Below, piece by piece: positions 2,861 to 55,949 of a DNA stretch of 56,103 nucleotides. Numbering within the stretch: position 1 is the stretch's first letter; every line of letters begins with the position of its first letter. Position numbers and translations under genes: made by a program. The stretch covers positions 5,946 through 62,048 of the forward strand of contig PLON01000041.1 of NCBI GenBank assembly GCA_003142095.1, written 5' to 3'. Under the pieces are notes generated by a model, which searched no databases, was not told where the DNA came from, and saw only the letters and a program-made list of their open reading frames with translations. This DNA is from Acidimicrobiaceae bacterium (GTDB lineage Bacteria > Actinomycetota > Acidimicrobiia > Acidimicrobiales > RAAP-2).

Positions 2861-3865
2861 ATGCCGGAATACGCCGTCGAGGCCCTCAACATCGTGCGCA
2901 CTTTTAGCGCTGGCGACGTGCGTGCGCTGGATGACGTCACGCTACGCGTCCCCACTGGCCAGGTCTTCGGACTGCTCGGACCCAACGGTTCGGGCAAGAC
3001 GACGATGGTGCGGATCTTGGCGACGATTCTCACGCCGAGTAGTGGATCTGCCACCGTCGCCGGTTTCGACGTCGTAAAACAGCCCAATCAGGTTCGTCGC
3101 CGTATCGGTCTCGCCGGCCAGAGCGCGACGGTGGACGAAAACCTGACCGGCTTGGAGAACCTACGCATGGTCGGCCTGTTAAATCATCTCAACAAGTCCT
3201 ACGTCGTCGCAAAGTCGGTCCAGCTCCTCAACGACTTTGGCCTCGCGGACGCAGGAAACCGCATTACCAAGACCTACTCAGGCGGCATGCGACGTCGACT
3301 CGACTTAGCGGCCGCGCTCGTCGCCAGTCCGCCCATTTTGTTTCTGGATGAACCGACGACGGGCCTTGACCCTCAGAGCCGACAGGACCTCTGGGGCATT
3401 ATCGAGCGGCTCGTCGAGGGCGGAACAACAGTGCTTCTCACTACCCAATACCTCGAAGAAGCGGATCGACTCGCAAAGCAACTCGTCGTCCTCAATCATG
3501 GAAAAATCATCGCCGAAGGCACCTCCCAAGAACTCAAAGAGCAAATGGGCGCGACGGTGTTGGCACTCACCTTTTCTTCGACAGGCGACGCCCTGCGTGC
3601 ACAGCCGCTGCTGGCAGACCTATCCATCCAGCCGGCGAACATCGAAGGATCGGTACTCGAGATGACCGTGGACAACGGGCCCTCGGTCACCGCTGATGCG
3701 CTTCGCCGTATTGACAGCGCGGGCATCATTCTCAACGGCCTGGCTCTGCGCGAACCGAGTCTCGACGACGTGTTTTTGAATTTGACCGGACACCGAGCCG
3801 AGGACATCGATGTAGAGACTCCCATCGAAACGGGACGCCGCGGTCGACGAAAGTCCAACGCGTGA
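2861..3865 (+). CDS. ABC transporter ATP-binding protein, DrrA-type
   Basis: ATPase subunit of a two-gene ABC-2 exporter. From the ATG at 2861 the product is 334 residues. It has Walker A GPNGSGKTT, signature YSGGMRRRLDLAAA and Walker B ILFLDEPTTGLD. A C-terminal extension of about 100 residues is typical of the DrrA (daunorubicin-resistance) subgroup. An upstream in-frame start at 2669 exists but would run inside the divergent dnaG, so I reject it. The stop overlaps the GTG of the permease gene by 4 bases. Substrate cannot be told from sequence; drugs, lipids or glycolipids are known for the family. Confidence 0.92.
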   Translation: MPEYAVEALNIVRTFSAGDVRALDDVTLRVPTGQVFGLLGPNGSGKTTMVRILATILTPSSGSATVAGFDVVKQPNQVRRRIGLAGQSATVDENLTGLENLRMVGLLNHLNKSYVVAKSVQLLNDFGLADAGNRITKTYSGGMRRRLDLAAALVASPPILFLDEPTTGLDPQSRQDLWGIIERLVEGGTTVLLTTQYLEEADRLAKQLVVLNHGKIIAEGTSQELKEQMGATVLALTFSSTGDALRAQPLLADLSIQPANIEGSVLEMTVDNGPSVTADALRRIDSAGIILNGLALREPSLDDVFLNLTGHRAEDIDVETPIETGRRGRRKSNA

Positions 3866-47889: not shown

Positions 47890-48497
47890 CCGACATGATG
47901 TCCGTCGCAAATACTGAACCATCGGACCTATCCCTTGTTCTTATCCAACTCATGAAGGGACCCCTGTACCGCGACACCCACGAGAAGCTCTGGAGCGTCT
48001 TGCTCGGAGTGCGCCACCAGGTCAGCGACTACGTAACGGTGCTTGGACTGAGCGTCGTGGTCGACGAAGCCGAGGGCTACGCCTTCCTGCGCAGCCGTCC
48101 CATCGACGACGAAGCCGCTGAGTTTCCCCGACTGGTGGCCCGGCGCGCCCTCTCCTTTCACGTCAGCGTTCTGCTAGCCCTGCTGCGCAAGCGTTTGGCC
48201 GAGTTCGACGCCAGCAGCGCGGACACCCGACTGATCCTCAGTCGCGATCAAATGGTAGAGATGCTCCGGCTGTTCATGCCCGACTCCACGAACGACGCCC
48301 GACTGGTGGACACAATCGACGCCCACATCAACAAGGTGACTGAACTCGGTTTCCTTCGCCGACTGCGCGACGAGCAGGACCTCTTCGAGGTCCGACGAAT
48401 CCTCAAGGCCTATGTCGACGGGCAGTGGCTCTCAGAGTTCGACGCCCGACTGGACGAATACCTGACTGAATTGAGCCACGTCGAGGGGTCTGGCTGA
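47886..48497 (+). CDS. jetB: Wadjet protein JetB (DUF4194)
   Basis: A 203-residue protein matching DUF4194, the KITE/MukE-like subunit that bridges JetA and JetC. Typical segments are [57 protein letters not shown] and the C-terminal [16 protein letters not shown]. Its ATG overlaps the jetA stop (ATGA), and its stop shares a base with the jetC start (TGATG). Confidence 0.93.
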
Positions 48498-51400
48498 TGT
48501 CGCCGCTGTTCAGCCTGATCGACCTCGACGACGGACTGCCCGACCGACTGCCCGGAAGTCGTCTGCAACGCCTCGAAGTCTTCAACTGGGGAACCTTCGA
48601 CCAAAAGGTCTGGTCCTTTGAGCTCGGGGGTCGCAACGCGCTGCTGACGGGCGACATCGGCTCGGGCAAATCCACACTCGTCGACGCGATCACCACACTG
48701 CTCTTACCGGCGAACAAGATCTCCTACAACAAAGCCGCCGGTGCCGAGACCCGTGAGCGCGATCTGCGATCCTACGTGCAGGGACACTACAAGTCCGAAC
48801 GAAACGAGACGACGGGGGTTTCACGTCCGGTGGCCTTGCGAGATACCCAGCACTTCTCGGTCATATTGGGAGTCTTCACCAACACCGGCTACGCCACCAC
48901 GGTCACCTTGGCCCAGGTGTTTCGTACCAAGGATATGGGCTCGGGTCAGCCCGAGCGGTTCTTCGTCGTCGCCGACACTGACCAGTCGATCGCTAAGGAT
49001 TTCTCTGAGTTCGGCACCGAGTTCAACTTCCTGAAACGCCGGCTGCGCGAAGGCGGCGCGAGAGTATATGACAGCTTCCCCGAGTACGGTCGGGACTTTC
49101 GACGCCGACTCGGCATCGAATCCGAGCAGGCCATGGAGCTCTTCCATCAGACAGTGTCAATGAAGGCGGTCGACAACCTCAATGACTTTGTTCGCAGCCA
49201 CATGCTCGAGCCCTTCGACACCAAGAGTCACATCGCTTCGTTGATCGAACACTTCGATAACCTCACCCAAGCCCACGACGCGGTCGTGCAGGCTCGCGCC
49301 CAACTGGACCTGCTCCAGCCGCTCGTGATCGACCTCGACTCCTACGATCAGATGTCGAACTCGCGTGCCACCCTCGAGCACCAACTTGCGGCGCTGCCCT
49401 TCTACTTCGCTGACCGTACGCGCCAGGCCCTTCTCCACGAACTCGAATCGCTCTCGGTCCAGTTGCACGATCTGAGTCAGGAACTTGAGTCGCAAGAAGC
49501 CAGCGTCAGGGACCTGCGCGAAACCGAGGCGCAGTTGAATTTGCAGATTGCTGGAATCGGAGGTGACCGGCTGGCCGACATAGAGAGATCGATCGAGCGC
49601 CACCAACGGGACAAACCAATTCGCCAGGCAAAGTTCGACCACTTCAACGCCTTGTTAGGGCAGGTGGGCATGGACCAGGTGTCGGTCGCTGAACAGTTCC
49701 TCGCCACCCACGACCGGGCTGCCGCCAGGCGAATGGAGCTAGAGGGCGAACTCGCCGCCATCGAGAACAATCTTAACGAGCGACGATTCGAGCAACGCTC
49801 GATCAACGAGCAATCCGAGGGAGTAAACAGGGAACTGCAGAGCCTGCAGACGCGTCGCAGCAACATTCCCCGTAACAGCCTCGAGTTACGCCAGCGCCTG
49901 TGCAACGAACTCGCCATCGAACCCGACCAGCTACCCTTCGCCGGAGAGTTGATCCAGGTCCTCGAAGAAGCTAGCCAATGGGAAGGTGCGGCAGAGCGCG
50001 TACTGCACAACTTCGCCCTGTCCCTGCTGGTTCCCGATCAGCGTTACGAAGCCGTGGCGGCCTGGATCAACGACCACCATCTCAATGCCCGAATTGTCTA
50101 CTACCGAGTGCCCAACCGGATGGCGCCTGCGACCCTGCCCGAACGCCGGTCGGCCCATCCCCTGCTAGTCGACATGCTCGAACTGAAACCCGAGTCAGGA
50201 TTCGAGACATGGTTGAAGGCCGAGCTCTCTCGGCGGGCCAACCATGCGTGCGTGTACACGATTGACGAGTTTCGCACCACGCAGCGGGCGGTCACGCGAG
50301 CTGGACAGATCAAGGACAAAGAACGCCACGAGAAGGACGACCGCCGACGTATCGACGACCGCCGAGAGTACGTGCTCGGTTGGACGAATCAGGCCAAAGT
50401 TGACGCTCTACTCACCCACGCCGGCACACTGCAGGAGCGACTGATCTCCCTCTCGAGCGTCATCGCGGACCTTGCGAATCACGACGAGACAGCTTCACTC
50501 CAACTCCAGTCGTTGGCTCGTCTGGGCGAGCACTCAAACTGGGACGACCTGGACTGGCAAGCTCTGGTGCGTGAAATTGCGGCGCTGCACGACGAACGAC
50601 TTCGTATCACGTCGTCATCGGACACGCTGGTCCTCCTAACATCAGAGCGCGAACGAGTCCGACAAGAGATCTCCACCCACGAGCACTCACGTGACGGTTT
50701 GCAACGAGACCGGGGTGCTGCCGAGGGCCGACAACGCACCGCCGAGGCCGAGTTGGACCGCGTCGGGACGATGTTATCCAATGCGCAGGCCGTGGAGGTC
50801 GCCACCGAATCGTTCACCTTGATTGACGTGGCGATGGCGTCCGAGCTCGACGGTTCAGCGCCAGACGTGGTGCGCCTCACCACGGTCCACCAATCCATCA
50901 ATGCCTCCCTCGTGCACCAGCTCAACGCGATCACCAAACAAGAGGGTTCGCTCGCACAGCGCATCGTGAGGTCGATGGGCGCATTCCGGGGGAAGTACCC
51001 TCACGAAACCATCGAGTTTGACGACTCGCTCGCATCGGCCCGAGAGTATCGCCAACTCCATCAACGAGTAGCCGACGACGATCTTCCCCGATTCGAACGC
51101 GAGTTCAAGGACTATCTCAATCAAAACGCGATCCGCGACGTCGCCGGATTCTCGGCCCAACTCAACAAGCACGAGAAGCAGATCCAAGATCGCATCGGAA
51201 CCATCAATGAGTCCTTGGCCGACATTGACTATAACGAGGGACGCTACATCCGACTCATGGCGAACCAGACAACTAACACTGAAGTTCGCGAGTTCCGTGC
51301 TGACCTGCGCGCCTGCACGGACAACGTAGTCGGCGGGAGCGCCTCCGACCAGTACTCAGAAGAGAAGTTCCTCCAGGTCAAGCGCATCATCGACCGGTTC

Positions 51401-51949
51401 AAGGGTCGAGAGGGTGCCACCGAACAGGATCGTAACTGGACTCGTAGAGTAACCGACGTCCGACAGTGGTTCCTGTTCTCCGCCTCCGAGCGGCGGCGAG
51501 CCGACGACATCGAGTACGAGAACTACAGCGATTCGGCGGGAAAGTCGGGCGGCCAGAAGGAGAAACTCGCCTATACAATTCTGGCCGCATCGTTGGCGTA
51601 CCAGTTCAAGTTGGACTGGGAGGCCGAGCGATCGAAGGCCTTCCGATTCGTCGTCATCGATGAGGCGTTTAGTCGCGGCTCCGAAGTCTCGACCCGCTAT
51701 GCCTTACGTCTCTTCACCCGTCTCGGGCTGCAACTTCTCATCGTGACCCCGCTCCAAAAGATCCACGTGATCGAGCCACACGTCGCGGCCGTCGGCTTTG
51801 TCGACAACCTCAACGGCAACTACTCACGACTCCAGTGCCTCACGATCACCGAGTACCGGCGTCGTCGTCTCGAGCGCATCGCCGTCACCGATGTCACGAG
51901 CCAAGTGACCGTTGAGGGCAAGGGCGTTACCAGCAACCGCGACGCATGA
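48497..51949 (+). CDS. jetC: Wadjet protein JetC (SMC-like ATPase)
   Basis: A 1,150-residue SMC/MukB-like motor. Walker A is [19 protein letters not shown] (GSGKST at 55-60). Two long coiled-coil regions flank a hinge-like middle near 450-620. The C-terminal head has the signature [15 protein letters not shown] (about 1015) and Walker [13 protein letters not shown] (about 1051). JetC should extrude DNA loops using ATP within the JetABC complex. All ATPase motifs are intact, so the system appears functional. It is locked by overlaps to jetB and jetD. Confidence 0.95.
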
Positions 51950-53139
51950 CCTCCTGGACGAACGTCGATGACCTGCTAGCCACCTTGCGCAAGCGTTGGG
52001 CGACGGGGCGTTACTTGAGCGACTACGCCGAGAACTTGCCGTGGGTGCGGGTCGAACTCCCCGTGAAGGCACCGTCGGCGAGCGAGCTGCTTGATCGATT
52101 CGATGATGCATCGCGCTGGGCCGAAAGATTCCAGCGCGATAGCCATACCGGCGGAGGCGTGGCGCGCTTTGGGGTGACATTCCGTACCGTCAAGGGCAAG
52201 AACCTCGGAGCAAACTCGGTGCCGGCACGAGTCCGGATCGAGAGCTTCGAACAACTCTGCTCGCTGATTGGTACGACCCGCGACGTACGCCTCCTTGATG
52301 CCATTCTGATGCAAACAGAGGTAGCAGCGCCGGAGCTCGTACCATGGGTGGTCGCCCATCCTTTGAGCGCGATAGAGCATCAGGGCATCTGGGGCGACTT
52401 GTTGGCCACGGTCAACTGGATCATCACTAACAGCACGGAAGTCCTCTACCTGCGCCAAATCGACGTCGAGGGTCTTGACACCAAATTCGTCGACCACCAT
52501 CGCAAACTGCTCAACGAACTCTTAACGGCCGTGCTGCCCGAGGATCGGATTGACTCCGAGTACAGCGCCGCCGACTTCGCGCGCCGGTTCCGCTTTCGAC
52601 CCAAGCCAACCTATACGCGGCTCCGTTTACTCAACCCACAACCGGCCCTCCCGAAGGACCTCAGCGAGATCACATTGCGCACCGAGGAACTTGCCGTTCT
52701 CGAGTTCGTCGCCGACACTGTTTTTGTCGTCGAAAACGAGATCACCTACCTCGCCTTTCCCGCCGTTCCGAATTCAATCGTCGTCTTCGGATCCGGATTC
52801 AGCCTCGCTGCCTTGCAAGACATCCCCTGGATGGATAGACGGGAGATCGTCTACTGGGGTGACATCGACACGCATGGCTTCGACATCTTGCACCGACTGC
52901 GGACTCAATTCGATTCCGTGCAATCGATAATGATGGATCTTCAAACACTGCTCGCCCATCCCCGGCAGTGGGTGACCGAGCCCAGCCCCACCAGCCGAGC
53001 TCTGACGAACCTTAACGATGCTGAGCGGGCGCTGTATCACGACCTCATTGAGGATCGCTACGGCCCGGCGGTCCGCCTAGAACAGGAGCGAGTGCGTTTC
53101 TCATGGCTGCAACAAGCGCTGCAGCCATGGATGTCCTGA
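51946..53139 (+). CDS. jetD: Wadjet nuclease JetD (DUF3322-DUF2220)
   Basis: A 397-residue protein. The N-terminal half is DUF3322-like ([22 protein letters not shown]-type segments). The C-terminal half is the DUF2220 TOPRIM domain, related to the Spo11/TopoVI-A family. The conserved Glu is in [14 protein letters not shown] and the DxD motif is [15 protein letters not shown] (D306 and D308). JetD is the nuclease that cuts circular DNA in Wadjet. Its ATG overlaps the jetC stop by 4 bases. All four jet genes are present in the type I order. Confidence 0.94.
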
Positions 53140-53343
53140 CCCGCTTTCTTCATTTCCGACTTATCACCACGCCCTAAGTTATTGGCCAAAAGTCAACTTA
53201 AAGGACTACCGGCGACACCCCTAGTGCGAGATCCGTGAAATTGGTGATGATTCTTGCGGAATTTTGGTATTACCGTCTGCGTGAATTTCGTACTGCACGC
53301 TGCGTGATCGGACGGGCCAGATGCGTGGCTACTACTACGAACT
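53140..53343. other. intergenic region between jetD and the AbiE promoter
   Basis: No coding potential is visible. The sequence is AT-richer than the jet genes and has several GTGAAATT or GCGTGAAT-like short repeats (near 53236, 53279 and 53303) that could be degenerate operators. No clear terminator hairpin was found after jetD. Confidence 0.4.
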
Positions 53344-53423
53344 CCCCCATTTACGGTGTATAATGCAGTTCTAATTACTCATTAGTACTACACAAACCCC
53401 CGTTATCAGGGTATAATGCAGTT
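53344..53423 (+). promoter_or_regulatory. duplicated promoter/operator of the AbiE operon
   Basis: Two copies of a unit CCCCCrTTA...GTATAATGCAGTT lie 53 bases apart, with TATAAT boxes at 53359-53364 and 53412-53417. The second has a -35-like TACACA 17 bases upstream. It ends 6 bases before the abiEi GTG, so the transcript should begin at or next to the start codon (leaderless). Between the copies lies the palindrome CTAAT-TACTC-ATTAG. AbiEi proteins are known to autorepress by binding repeats at their promoter. Confidence 0.7.
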
Positions 53424-54164
53424 GTGGAACGCCATAAGACCCTAGATCGCATCGCAAATCTCGCCGAAGAGCAGTGGGGCCTCGTGACCCGCCGTCAACT
53501 CGAAAACGTCGAGATTCCAGCAACGACGCTCGAGCGCCTTACGGCGCCAGACTCAGTTCTGAAGCGAGTTGCCTACGGCGTCTACCGGCTCGTGGGTTCA
53601 CCCACACCAGATCACATGGAACTGCGAGCCGCGTGGCTGCAGCTGGCTCCCAACGTACCCGCGTGGGAGCGCACTCCTGCAGAAGGCGTCGTGTCGCACC
53701 GGTCGGCGGCGGCGCTCTATGGCGTAGGCCACCTCCCAGCGGACCGGCACGAGTTCACGCTGGCCCGGCGCAAGCAGAGCCGACGGCGAGATGTTCGTCT
53801 TCACCAGCGCCACCTCGCGGACGAAGAATGGAATCAACTTCGCGGACTGCCGGCGACCCGGCCGGCACGAATCGTCTCTGACCTGCTGTACGACCACGAG
53901 GACCCTGGGGCCGTCGCTCAGATTATTGTCGACGCCATCCGCCCGGTCTTCGACTACCCCGGAGCTTTCGCGGTGAGCCTCGCCCCCCACGCCGGAAGAT
54001 TCGGACTGCGCCGCGATGATGGGCTCGCCCTCCTTCGCTGGCTGCTCGATCTCGTCGGTGATAAGGACACTGAGAAATGGATGCAAGAGGCCCGCAGTTC
54101 GATGATCGCTCGCTCTGCACCGACTCGCGCACCTTCAGCGTCACGACCGGCAGTACCAGCGTGA
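53424..54164 (+). CDS. abiEi: AbiEi-family antitoxin / repressor
   Basis: A 246-residue type IV antitoxin of the AbiE abortive-infection system. The N-terminal winged helix (IANLAEEQWGLVTRRQLENV, then LKRVAYGVYRL) is the AbiEi DNA-binding domain. The C-terminal part (VVSHRSAAALYGVGHLPADR, LPATRPARIVSDLLYD) is the antitoxin domain. The start is GTG at 53424, just after a TATAAT box. It overlaps the toxin gene by 4 bases (GTGA). The antitoxin counteracts AbiEii without stable protein contact in characterised systems. Confidence 0.9.
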   Translation: MERHKTLDRIANLAEEQWGLVTRRQLENVEIPATTLERLTAPDSVLKRVAYGVYRLVGSPTPDHMELRAAWLQLAPNVPAWERTPAEGVVSHRSAAALYGVGHLPADRHEFTLARRKQSRRRDVRLHQRHLADEEWNQLRGLPATRPARIVSDLLYDHEDPGAVAQIIVDAIRPVFDYPGAFAVSLAPHAGRFGLRRDDGLALLRWLLDLVGDKDTEKWMQEARSSMIARSAPTRAPSASRPAVPA

Positions 54165-55057
54165 GCGAACGCCAGCGCACCTATTCGAGTCCGATGGCCT
54201 TCCGTCGAGCGCTCACCGACAAGCTCAAGGTGGTCGCGGAGACGAGTCGGTGGAACCTCCCGCAGCTCCAGCGGCAGATGGCCTACGACCGCTTCTTAGA
54301 GCGGCTATACCTCGTCGATGACGGGTGGGTCGTAAAGGGCGCTACGGCGCTCCTTGCCCGCGAAATTGGCGTTCGAGCCACAATCGATGTCGACGTCTAT
54401 CGAGCGGTGGAACGTCAAGCTGCTGAAGCCGACATCGGTCGAGCGGCAGACCTGGACATCGGCGACTGGTTCAGGTTCGATATAGGCCCGGCACGCGCAC
54501 ACTCCGACGGAGCAGCCGGCGTCCGGTTTCCAGTGACCGCATATGTCGGAGCGACGGAGTGGGCTCAGTTCCACGTCGATCTAGTGGGCTCGAATCTGCG
54601 CATGACCGGGGAGCCTGATGAAATGCCGGCGCTAGCCCGGATCGTGATGCCCGACGTCGCCCAGCACGGTTATCGGGTCTACCCGCTCGTAGATCATGTG
54701 GCCGACAAAGTGGTGGCAATCATCGAGCGGCACGGAGACCGTCCATCTACCCGTTTCAAGGACCTCGTCGACCTCGTCGCCATCATTACGGAGGCATCGG
54801 TCGACGCCAAACTTCAGAGAACGGCACTGCAGTCGGAAGCGACGCGGCGAGGAATCATTCTGCCAAACCGTTTCGATGTACCTGACCGTGAACTTTGGAA
54901 GACGGGGTATGAGAGCGAAGCACAACGCTCGCTCCTGCCTTTGGCTCAAACGCTCGACGAAGCACTGGCGATAGTGAGGCCATTCGTCGATGCACTTTTG
55001 GACGAAACGGCAATCGATCACTGGGACCCGACGACGCTGCAGTGGAGTCGCACATGA
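54161..55057 (+). CDS. abiEii: AbiEii-family nucleotidyltransferase toxin
   Basis: A 298-residue toxin with the nucleotidyltransferase motifs KGATALL (K59-G60) and ATIDVDVYR (D76 and D78), and the later RFKDLVDLVAI. Characterised relatives transfer nucleotides to the acceptor end of tRNAs and block translation. The GTG at 54161 is preferred because it overlaps the antitoxin stop as GTGA; an ATG at 54077 lies deep inside the antitoxin gene. The usual KGGTAL is KGATAL here. Together with Wadjet it makes a two-system defence island. Confidence 0.9.
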   Translation: MSERQRTYSSPMAFRRALTDKLKVVAETSRWNLPQLQRQMAYDRFLERLYLVDDGWVVKGATALLAREIGVRATIDVDVYRAVERQAAEADIGRAADLDIGDWFRFDIGPARAHSDGAAGVRFPVTAYVGATEWAQFHVDLVGSNLRMTGEPDEMPALARIVMPDVAQHGYRVYPLVDHVADKVVAIIERHGDRPSTRFKDLVDLVAIITEASVDAKLQRTALQSEATRRGIILPNRFDVPDRELWKTGYESEAQRSLLPLAQTLDEALAIVRPFVDALLDETAIDHWDPTTLQWSRT

Positions 55058-55472: not shown

Positions 55473-55733
55473 TCACCGCCGTGCATGCGCAGTCCCGTAT
55501 CTCACGTTCCCAGAAAGTGTGTAGACCCCGAGGCTCTTGAACCATTCGTAAGTGAATCGAGTGGCCCAGTTGCGCCCGGAGAGTCCGTGCTTGGTGCTGG
55601 CCAGTATGGCCATCCGTTCCGCGACGTAACTGTCGATGATGCTGAACTTCCGCGATGAGTTTCCAAAGCGGAAGTAGCCCGACCAACCCCGCAGCACGGG
55701 ATTGAGTCGGTCCACGACAACATCTAACGACTG
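55473..55733 (-). pseudogene. group II intron reverse transcriptase/maturase, C-terminal fragment
   Basis: About 87 residues of the maturase-specific (domain X) region: LDVVVDRLNPVLRGWSGYFR, FSIIDSYVAERMAILAS, and WATRFTYEWFKSLGVYTLSG. The reverse-transcriptase domain that should precede it is missing. The frame upstream changes at about 55734 into the end of an IS21-like element. The protein is inactive, so the remnant could move only with help in trans. Confidence 0.85.
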
Positions 55734-55802
55734 TGTCGACGCCGCTTGAAAAGTGAGCCATAACGCTGCTTGAAAAGTGAGCCACCTAACCAAGATGGGA
55801 AG
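55734..55802 (+). mobile_element. left end of an IS21-like element
   Basis: Begins TGTCGACGCCG and contains two copies of the direct repeat GCTTGAAAAGTGAGCCA (from 55744 and 55770), which end before the istA start. IS21-family elements carry such multiple repeats at their termini. The element lies directly against the truncated maturase, so its insertion or a later deletion removed the rest of the intron. Confidence 0.7.
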
Positions 55803-55949
55803 GTGATCACTTTGGAAAACTGGGCACTTATCAGGCACCTCCACCTCAGCGAAGGCGAATCAATGCGCTCGATCGCTCAGAGGTTGGAGATCTCGCGAAA
55901 TACCGTGGCGAAGGCGGTGGCGTCGACAACACGGTTTGGCCTGCTCTGA
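55803..55949 (+). pseudogene. truncated IS21 transposase istA (N-terminal HTH only)
   Basis: From GTG at 55803 the frame encodes 48 residues: ITLENWALIRHLHLSEGESM, then RSIAQRLEISRNTVAKAVAS, then an unrelated short tail and a TGA. The first 40 residues match the IstA N-terminal helix-turn-helix. Full IstA is about 350-500 residues, so the gene is truncated or frame-disrupted after the HTH. No istB is visible before the window ends. Confidence 0.75.

Follow-up and report, generated by a model that had tools for sequence, protein, structure and literature searches.

Twin 36-bp Dyads and a Predicted Leaderless Start as the Candidate AbiEi Operator-Promoter of an Acidimicrobiaceae abiE Locus

Introduction

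Two members of the AbiEi family of antitoxins, Rv2827c of Mycobacterium tuberculosis and the AbiEi of S. agalactiae, are reported to act on their own promoters, where they bind inverted repeats and repress, with cooperativity that is positive for the S. agalactiae protein and negative for Rv2827c (PMC7319586). Binding to inverted repeats in its own promoter, with repression, is likewise described for the AbiEi of S. suis (PMC7319586, PMC11062541). The operator of S. agalactiae is made of one pair, two 23-bp repeats with a gap of 3; that of Rv2827c consists of four 23-bp repeats forming two inverted-repeat pairs within positions -1 to -131 of the start codon, with gaps of 13 bp within and 4 bp between the pairs, and its proximal pair lies over a predicted SigA promoter (PMC7319586). 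In that paper, the word "leaderless" is used twice, both times in the reference list. A second line of work in M. tuberculosis, based on RNA sequencing, found 32 of the 37 toxin-antitoxin pairs with a primary start to be leaderless, their mRNAs sharing a TANNNT -10 element and starting at the start codon (PMC3898074).

The locus described here lies in a stretch of 56,103 nucleotides from an Acidimicrobiaceae genome, denoted in this work as the window, and its abiEi gene is preceded by two dyads. The nearest layout to these twin dyads is that of the Rv2827c-Rv2826c operator. Both combine an AbiEi-family antitoxin with tandem inverted-repeat pairs near the start codon and with autorepression, shown in that case and predicted in ours, and in the window too there are two dyads, the second of which ends next to the start codon. 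However, the four 23-bp repeats and their gaps have no counterpart in the window, and the pair period of 63 bp, summed from the published lengths for Rv2827c, compares with 36-bp dyads placed 52-53 bp apart; the two antitoxins are alike by fold, and their operators are set side by side by layout. The similarity to S. agalactiae and S. suis, that is, repression through inverted repeats in the promoter, is a predicted one for the window, which has two dyads instead of one pair and a predicted leaderless start. This start recalls that of the M. tuberculosis toxin-antitoxin mRNAs, although the latter was mapped by RNA sequencing and ours is predicted from sequence.

A further parallel is offered by the C proteins of restriction-modification systems, which are unrelated to AbiEi and whose upstream site activates. 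As in the window, their operators contain two inverted repeats ahead of a leaderless, autoregulated gene, but the C-boxes are short (CTAAG-n5-CTTAG in Csp231I) compared with dyads of 36 bp (PMC4824078). What is known, then, is the existence of AbiEi operators made of inverted repeats; what appears to be new is the twin 36-bp dyad with a 53-bp period, associated with a predicted leaderless start. The layout is called new because the titles and opening parts of abstracts in the papers surveyed on AbiEi promoter repeats, leaderless mRNA and actinobacterial operators name no twin operator of this kind.

The abiE Locus and Its Neighborhood

The open reading frames of the window, together with profile searches, revealed an abiEi-abiEii pair on the + strand. 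The first gene (53424-54164) encodes a protein of 246 residues, an antitoxin and predicted DNA-binding repressor, matched by the PADLOC AbiEi model at 5.7e-71; the Pfam family AbiEi_4 gave 22.3 bits, below its cut-off of 25. The second gene (54161-55057) encodes the AbiEii toxin, a nucleotidyltransferase (PF08843, 58 bits for a cut-off of 22.5; PADLOC AbiEii, 2.2e-84), and its GTG start overlaps the abiEi stop codon in the sequence GTGA. The locus therefore displays the features of a type IV AbiE system: AbiEi, AbiEii directly downstream and inverted repeats in the abiEi promoter.

Upstream of abiEi, and on the same strand, are jetC (48497-51949) and jetD (51946-53139) of a type I Wadjet system. 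The gap between the end of jetD and abiEi spans 284 bp and contains both dyads. A search of the loci with tblastn found JetD beside abiEi, besides the window, in L002 alone, a count that is a lower bound because many loci hold less than 3 kb of upstream DNA; a linkage between Wadjet and abiE was rejected on this basis. In L002, whose record is labelled Acidobacteria, JetC (partial), JetD, AbiEi and AbiEii are 87-92% identical to those of the window, a likeness reflecting either a recent transfer or a mis-binned contig.

Anatomy of the Twin Dyads

The region ahead of abiEi contains a direct repeat of 41 nt (53330-53370 and 53383-53423) whose copies are 76% identical, start 53 bp apart and include CCCCC (53344-53348 and 53397-53401) and the 13-mer GTATAATGCAGTT (53358-53370 and 53411-53423). 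The second copy ends at the base just before the abiEi GTG. A first-pass annotation of this DNA had reported tandem units, spaced by 53 bp and carrying TATAAT, before abiEi, with the second TATAAT 6 nt from the GTG. This description proved correct to the base, since the hexamer at 53412-53417 is followed by GCAGTT and then by the GTG at 53424. A point absent from that annotation is that each 41-nt copy constitutes a hyphenated inverted repeat of 36 bp. Unit 1, the upstream operator dyad, occupies 53334-53369 (+ strand), with its centre between 53351 and 53352; unit 2, the downstream operator dyad, which also contains the promoter, occupies 53387-53422 (+ strand), with its centre between 53404 and 53405, and ends 1 nt before the GTG. 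The outer arms of unit 2 are ACTACA/TGCAGT and its inner arms CCCCC/AGGG. The window dyads are moderately symmetric, with 5 and 6 of their 12 inner pairs formed.

The 13-mer GTATAATGCAGTT matches the 2.64-Mb genome exactly at these two places only, with one more site at one mismatch, and exact matching of this 13-mer across the genome revealed no other AbiEi targets. Both its confinement to the locus and the absence of the paired layout from random stretches, described below, indicate that the paired repeat is not due to chance.

Conservation of the Dyads in AbiEi Relatives

The upstream DNA of AbiEi relatives was compared, first for 29 loci and then for more, yielding 32 with a readable 5' end, the window included. 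Several loci were dropped before counting: L025 and L065, which lack the 5' end; L029 and L030, matched only from residues 72 and 54, respectively; L067, matched from residue 32, with an internal stop and no unit found; and L031, L060, L061, L062 and L063, which were taken, judging by length and position on the contig, as the contigs of L015, L006, L009, L010 and L018, respectively. A narrower set of 25 loci leaves out the near copies L002, L004 and L007, as well as L033, L034, L064 and L066; the close loci L008 and L010 are both kept, and the unit 1 of L020 counted there is not a real dyad. As the relatives share ancestry, all these counts refer to non-independent events.

At least the downstream dyad precedes abiEi in all 32 loci, and in 29 of them two dyads 52-53 bp apart are found. 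The spacing is 53 bp in 24 and 52 bp in 3; the other two are L018 (52 bp by one scoring, its tied best pair being at 62 in another) and L034, whose two dyads measure 35 bp and lie 52 bp from each other. Only the downstream dyad is clearly visible in L020, L033 and L066, and hence the upstream one appears to be dispensable in some loci. The outer arms read ACTKCA/TGMAGT across the relatives; the inner arms are CCCCC/GGGGG in those nearer to the window and GCTCA/TGAGC or similar in others. The paired layout scored 19 or more in 24 of the 32 abiEi upstream regions and in none of 836 stretches of 143 bp drawn at random from these loci (mean 14.1, maximum 18), of which 20 reached 17, at scattered spacings; by the outer-arm score, 4 of the 29 paired loci (L011, L018, L019 and L023) attain only 17-18 or less.

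Since the units were located by their outer arms alone, the inner arms provided an independent test. In the 25 loci, an average of 6.40 inner-arm positions out of 12 paired in unit 1 and 6.60 in unit 2; shuffled letters gave 3.1 and shifted centres 2.8. In addition, the inner left arms of units 1 and 2 agreed at 4.04 of 6 positions within a locus versus 3.05 of 6 between loci, a value that none of 2000 permutations equalled. The conserved distance, the symmetry and a core that changes but is shared by both units are best explained by one protein that travels with the dyads and reads both, and AbiEi would be the obvious candidate. It might be argued that some other host regulator reads them instead, but the dyads accompany abiEi in genomes labelled as several phyla, they change in concert and, in the window's genome, the exact 13-mer is restricted to this locus, all of which makes such a regulator very improbable.

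Among 25 further loci of the phylum, with identities of at most 41% (L035-L059), inspection by eye revealed no convincing pair of 36-bp motifs before the gene. Four of them, all below 41% identity (L038, L041, L043 and L045), displayed a different repeat, of the TTGCAA type, and a TAC-type -10 six bases ahead of the ATG, on the basis of which leaderless promoters embedded in operators may be common among the AbiEi genes of this phylum.

Operator versus Promoter

In the window, the -10 hexamer TATAAT (53412-53417, + strand) lies in the right half of unit 2, and a -35-like TACACA (53389-53394, + strand) lies in its left arm at a spacer of 17 bp, both together matching the consensus at 10 of 12 positions. 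The -35-like element is weak on its own and overlaps the operator arm. The TATAAT of unit 1 (53359-53364, + strand) might be regarded as a second promoter, peculiar to the window copy and not conserved. Indeed, TANNNT occurs at the -10 position of unit 2 in 24 of 25 loci and at that of unit 1 in a single one, the window itself (27 and 2 of 28, respectively, when near copies are counted), and the individual columns T, A and T are kept in 25, 25 and 24 of 25 loci in unit 2 versus 10, 11 and 15 in unit 1. The tandem TATAAT is therefore nearly peculiar to the window copy, and the retention of the -10 downstream only indicates that conservation of the upstream unit reflects its role as operator. 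Judged by these alignments, what is duplicated at the family level is the operator, as a tandem pair of operator dyads, and not the promoter.

These data bear on the initial suggestion that both copies act as promoter and as repressor target. The second half of it is sustained by the symmetry of the dyads, their concerted change, their presence with abiEi and the AbiEi-like fold of the protein, and AbiEi may well recognize both dyads; the first half, a duplicated promoter, does not agree with the distribution of TANNNT, and tandem promoters were rejected as a feature of the family. A rival reading, implied in the first-pass annotation, is that both boxes are active and produce a leaderless mRNA together with another whose leader measures 53 nt. 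The perfect TATAAT in both units of the window and the TATACT found in unit 1 of the close relative L004 speak for this arrangement, which we nevertheless hold to be unlikely given the absence of TANNNT from unit 1 in nearly all loci, a promoter scan of this stretch that lists unit 2 only and a 53-nt leader in which the sole ribosome site would be a distant AGGG.

A Predicted Leaderless Start

Sequence evidence also supported the proposal, made in the first-pass annotation, that the abiEi message is leaderless. In the window, no ribosome site separates the -10 from the GTG start codon (53424-53426, + strand), and transcription is predicted to start at 53424. Of the 32 loci, 24 have 6 nt between the -10 and the start codon, 4 have 5, 1 has 8, 2 have 9 and 1 has 11, so that the gap is 5-6 nt in 28 loci. 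Assuming that transcription starts 7 nt downstream of the -10, leaders would measure between 0 and about 5 nt, which leaves no room for a ribosome-binding site; those of about 2-5 nt are possible in the four loci with gaps of 8-11 nt. In one of these, L023 (gap 9), GGAG stands just ahead of the ATG and would be exposed by an earlier transcription start. Among the 6-nt gaps was counted that of L015, where the start position (3001-3003) is occupied by ATA, the sole candidate within 16 nt of the dyad, so that the start is either broken or a rare case of leaderless initiation at AUA.

The genomic background was evaluated in 222 kb of the same genome (12 stretches plus the window), considering ORFs of at least 150 residues (n = 159). 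TANNNT stood 6 nt ahead of the first start in 13 of the 159 ORFs, abiEi included, compared with 1, 0, 3 and 3 for gaps of 4, 5, 7 and 8. This arrangement affected 3.6% (14/388) of the ATG/GTG codons near gene starts versus 0.25% of internal codons, and Shine-Dalgarno-like starts were found at 35 of 159 first starts versus 191 of 1997 internal codons. Because of the peak of TANNNT at the 6-nt gap, leaderless starts look like a general class in this genome, beside the Shine-Dalgarno-like ones.

Among 93 plasmid records with a relative, 8 diverged AbiEi genes (35-42% identity; Rhodococcus, Nocardia and Streptomyces) were sampled by eye, and 6 of them displayed TANNNT, six bases and ATG. In the Rhodococcus plasmid pLP337 (L071), a 51-bp repeat (719-769) with 20 of 25 positions pairing is found ahead of abiEi and encloses TACTAT, six bases and the ATG.

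The AbiEi Protein and Its Putative Recognition Helix

An AlphaFold2 model of AbiEi was obtained from an alignment of 30 sequences (mean pLDDT 81.9, pTM 0.69). The best solved Foldseek matches were 1zel (Rv2827c, E 3.0e-5) and 6y8q (S. agalactiae AbiEi, E 7.9e-5), with VIA Z values on the model of 7.2 and 8.5, respectively. The TM-scores were low (0.42 and 0.38) and the rmsd large, suggesting that the modelled domains agree better than their arrangement. At the sequence level, a phmmer search of the window AbiEi against the PDB gave no match up to E 1, and a scan of viral contigs gave one weak, partial match (27% identity, residues 77-142).

According to our reading of the model, helices 23-28 and 33-39 would form a helix-turn-helix, whose putative second helix contains residue 34. 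With a label set beforehand (C or T at position 13 of unit 2), the mutual information was computed over all protein columns; residue 34 ranked second (0.82), behind residue 221 (0.90), with L024 and L032 as exceptions. With a second label, defined once the data had been inspected (CCC at positions 11-13 of unit 2), residue 34 was T in 16 of 16 CCC loci and in none of the 15 others, which carry A, S, D or R; this count includes near copies and excludes L034. L028 was left out of the tree, and both L026 and L028 out of alignment A1. The tree required 5 changes and provided three independent pairs on supported branches, with at most two concordant and none discordant, and the covariation between residue 34 and the operator is for this reason suggestive only. 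The cleanest pair is formed by L014 and L020, two close proteins with CCCC versus GCTCA operators and T versus A at residue 34.

A Model for Autoregulation

The anatomy of the dyads, its conservation, the restriction of the -10 to unit 2 and its distance to the start are direct observations. Binding and repression by AbiEi, the position at which transcription begins and the function of unit 1 are what we infer from them. These elements can be integrated in a model, which we consider very likely, in which AbiEi, bound to two dyads on the same face of the DNA, represses a leaderless abiEi-abiEii operon; this region would then be the operator-promoter through which a type IV abiE system regulates itself. 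In this model, each of the two 36-bp dyads, 53 bp from centre to centre, would be bound by AbiEi through its N-terminal winged helix, probably with one molecule per half-site. As 53 bp correspond to about five helical turns, both dyads would look to the same side of the helix. Within the downstream dyad lie the -35-like region, the -10 and the bases that lead up to the start codon, except the last, so that AbiEi bound there would exclude RNA polymerase from the promoter. The upstream dyad, centred at about -72, would act in an auxiliary manner, raising or tuning occupancy, and cooperative binding of AbiEi across both dyads is possible. When AbiEi is low, transcription would begin at the G of the GTG and produce a leaderless abiEi-abiEii mRNA, with abiEii translated through the GTGA overlap.

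The conservation of an upstream unit without a -10 could also be accounted for by a switch in which AbiEi activates from the upstream dyad and represses from the downstream one. Position -72 suits a class I activator, and the centre of the upstream dyad falls at about this point. The C-protein genes provide a precedent, as they pair two inverted repeats (OL and OR) with a leaderless mRNA and are activated at low and repressed at high levels of the protein (PMC4824078). However, the AbiEi proteins characterized so far are reported to repress (PMC7319586, PMC11062541), and loci exist with the downstream dyad alone, so that we regard such a switch as quite unlikely and favor an auxiliary role for the upstream dyad in repression.

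Distribution and Possible Uses of the Candidate Operator

The abiEi subfamily is patchy, being detected at E <= 1e-30 in 11 of 397 genomes of the order and in 3 of the 14 genomes listed for the genus, counting that of the window. The record labels of the loci are Acidimicrobiaceae, Streptosporangiaceae, Gaiella, Solirubrobacterales, Chloroflexi and one Acidobacteria, the first five being carried by paired-dyad loci; single labels are possibly wrong, as most records are MAGs. L006 belongs to a named strain, Acidithrix ferrooxidans PY-F3, presumably in culture; its AbiEi shares 78% identity with that of the window, and both dyads stand ahead of the gene there as well. Tentatively, it can be imagined that a 90-bp cassette (two same-face dyads, a promoter and a leaderless start abutting the operator) travels with abiEi across phyla, while the recognition helix (T at residue 34 with CCC inner arms, A, S, D or R with others) and both sets of half-sites are re-tuned together, perhaps avoiding cross-talk between AbiE copies.

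The comparison furnishes a sequence-level definition of the AbiEi operator, usable for finding sites in unannotated genomes, in which operator and promoter are told apart through conservation, and it suggests that an operator and a leaderless start can be tied together with a single base between them. It also supplies naturally occurring variants of both operator and recognition helix, including that of A. ferrooxidans PY-F3, for specificity tests in a toxin-antitoxin family of phage defence.

On the other side of the window's operon, a minus-strand ORF is found at 55473-55844, whose product we take to resemble the C-terminal portion of a maturase from a group II intron. A repeated TTGAAAAGTGAGCC lies close by, and both are possibly remnants of mobile elements bordering the defence genes.
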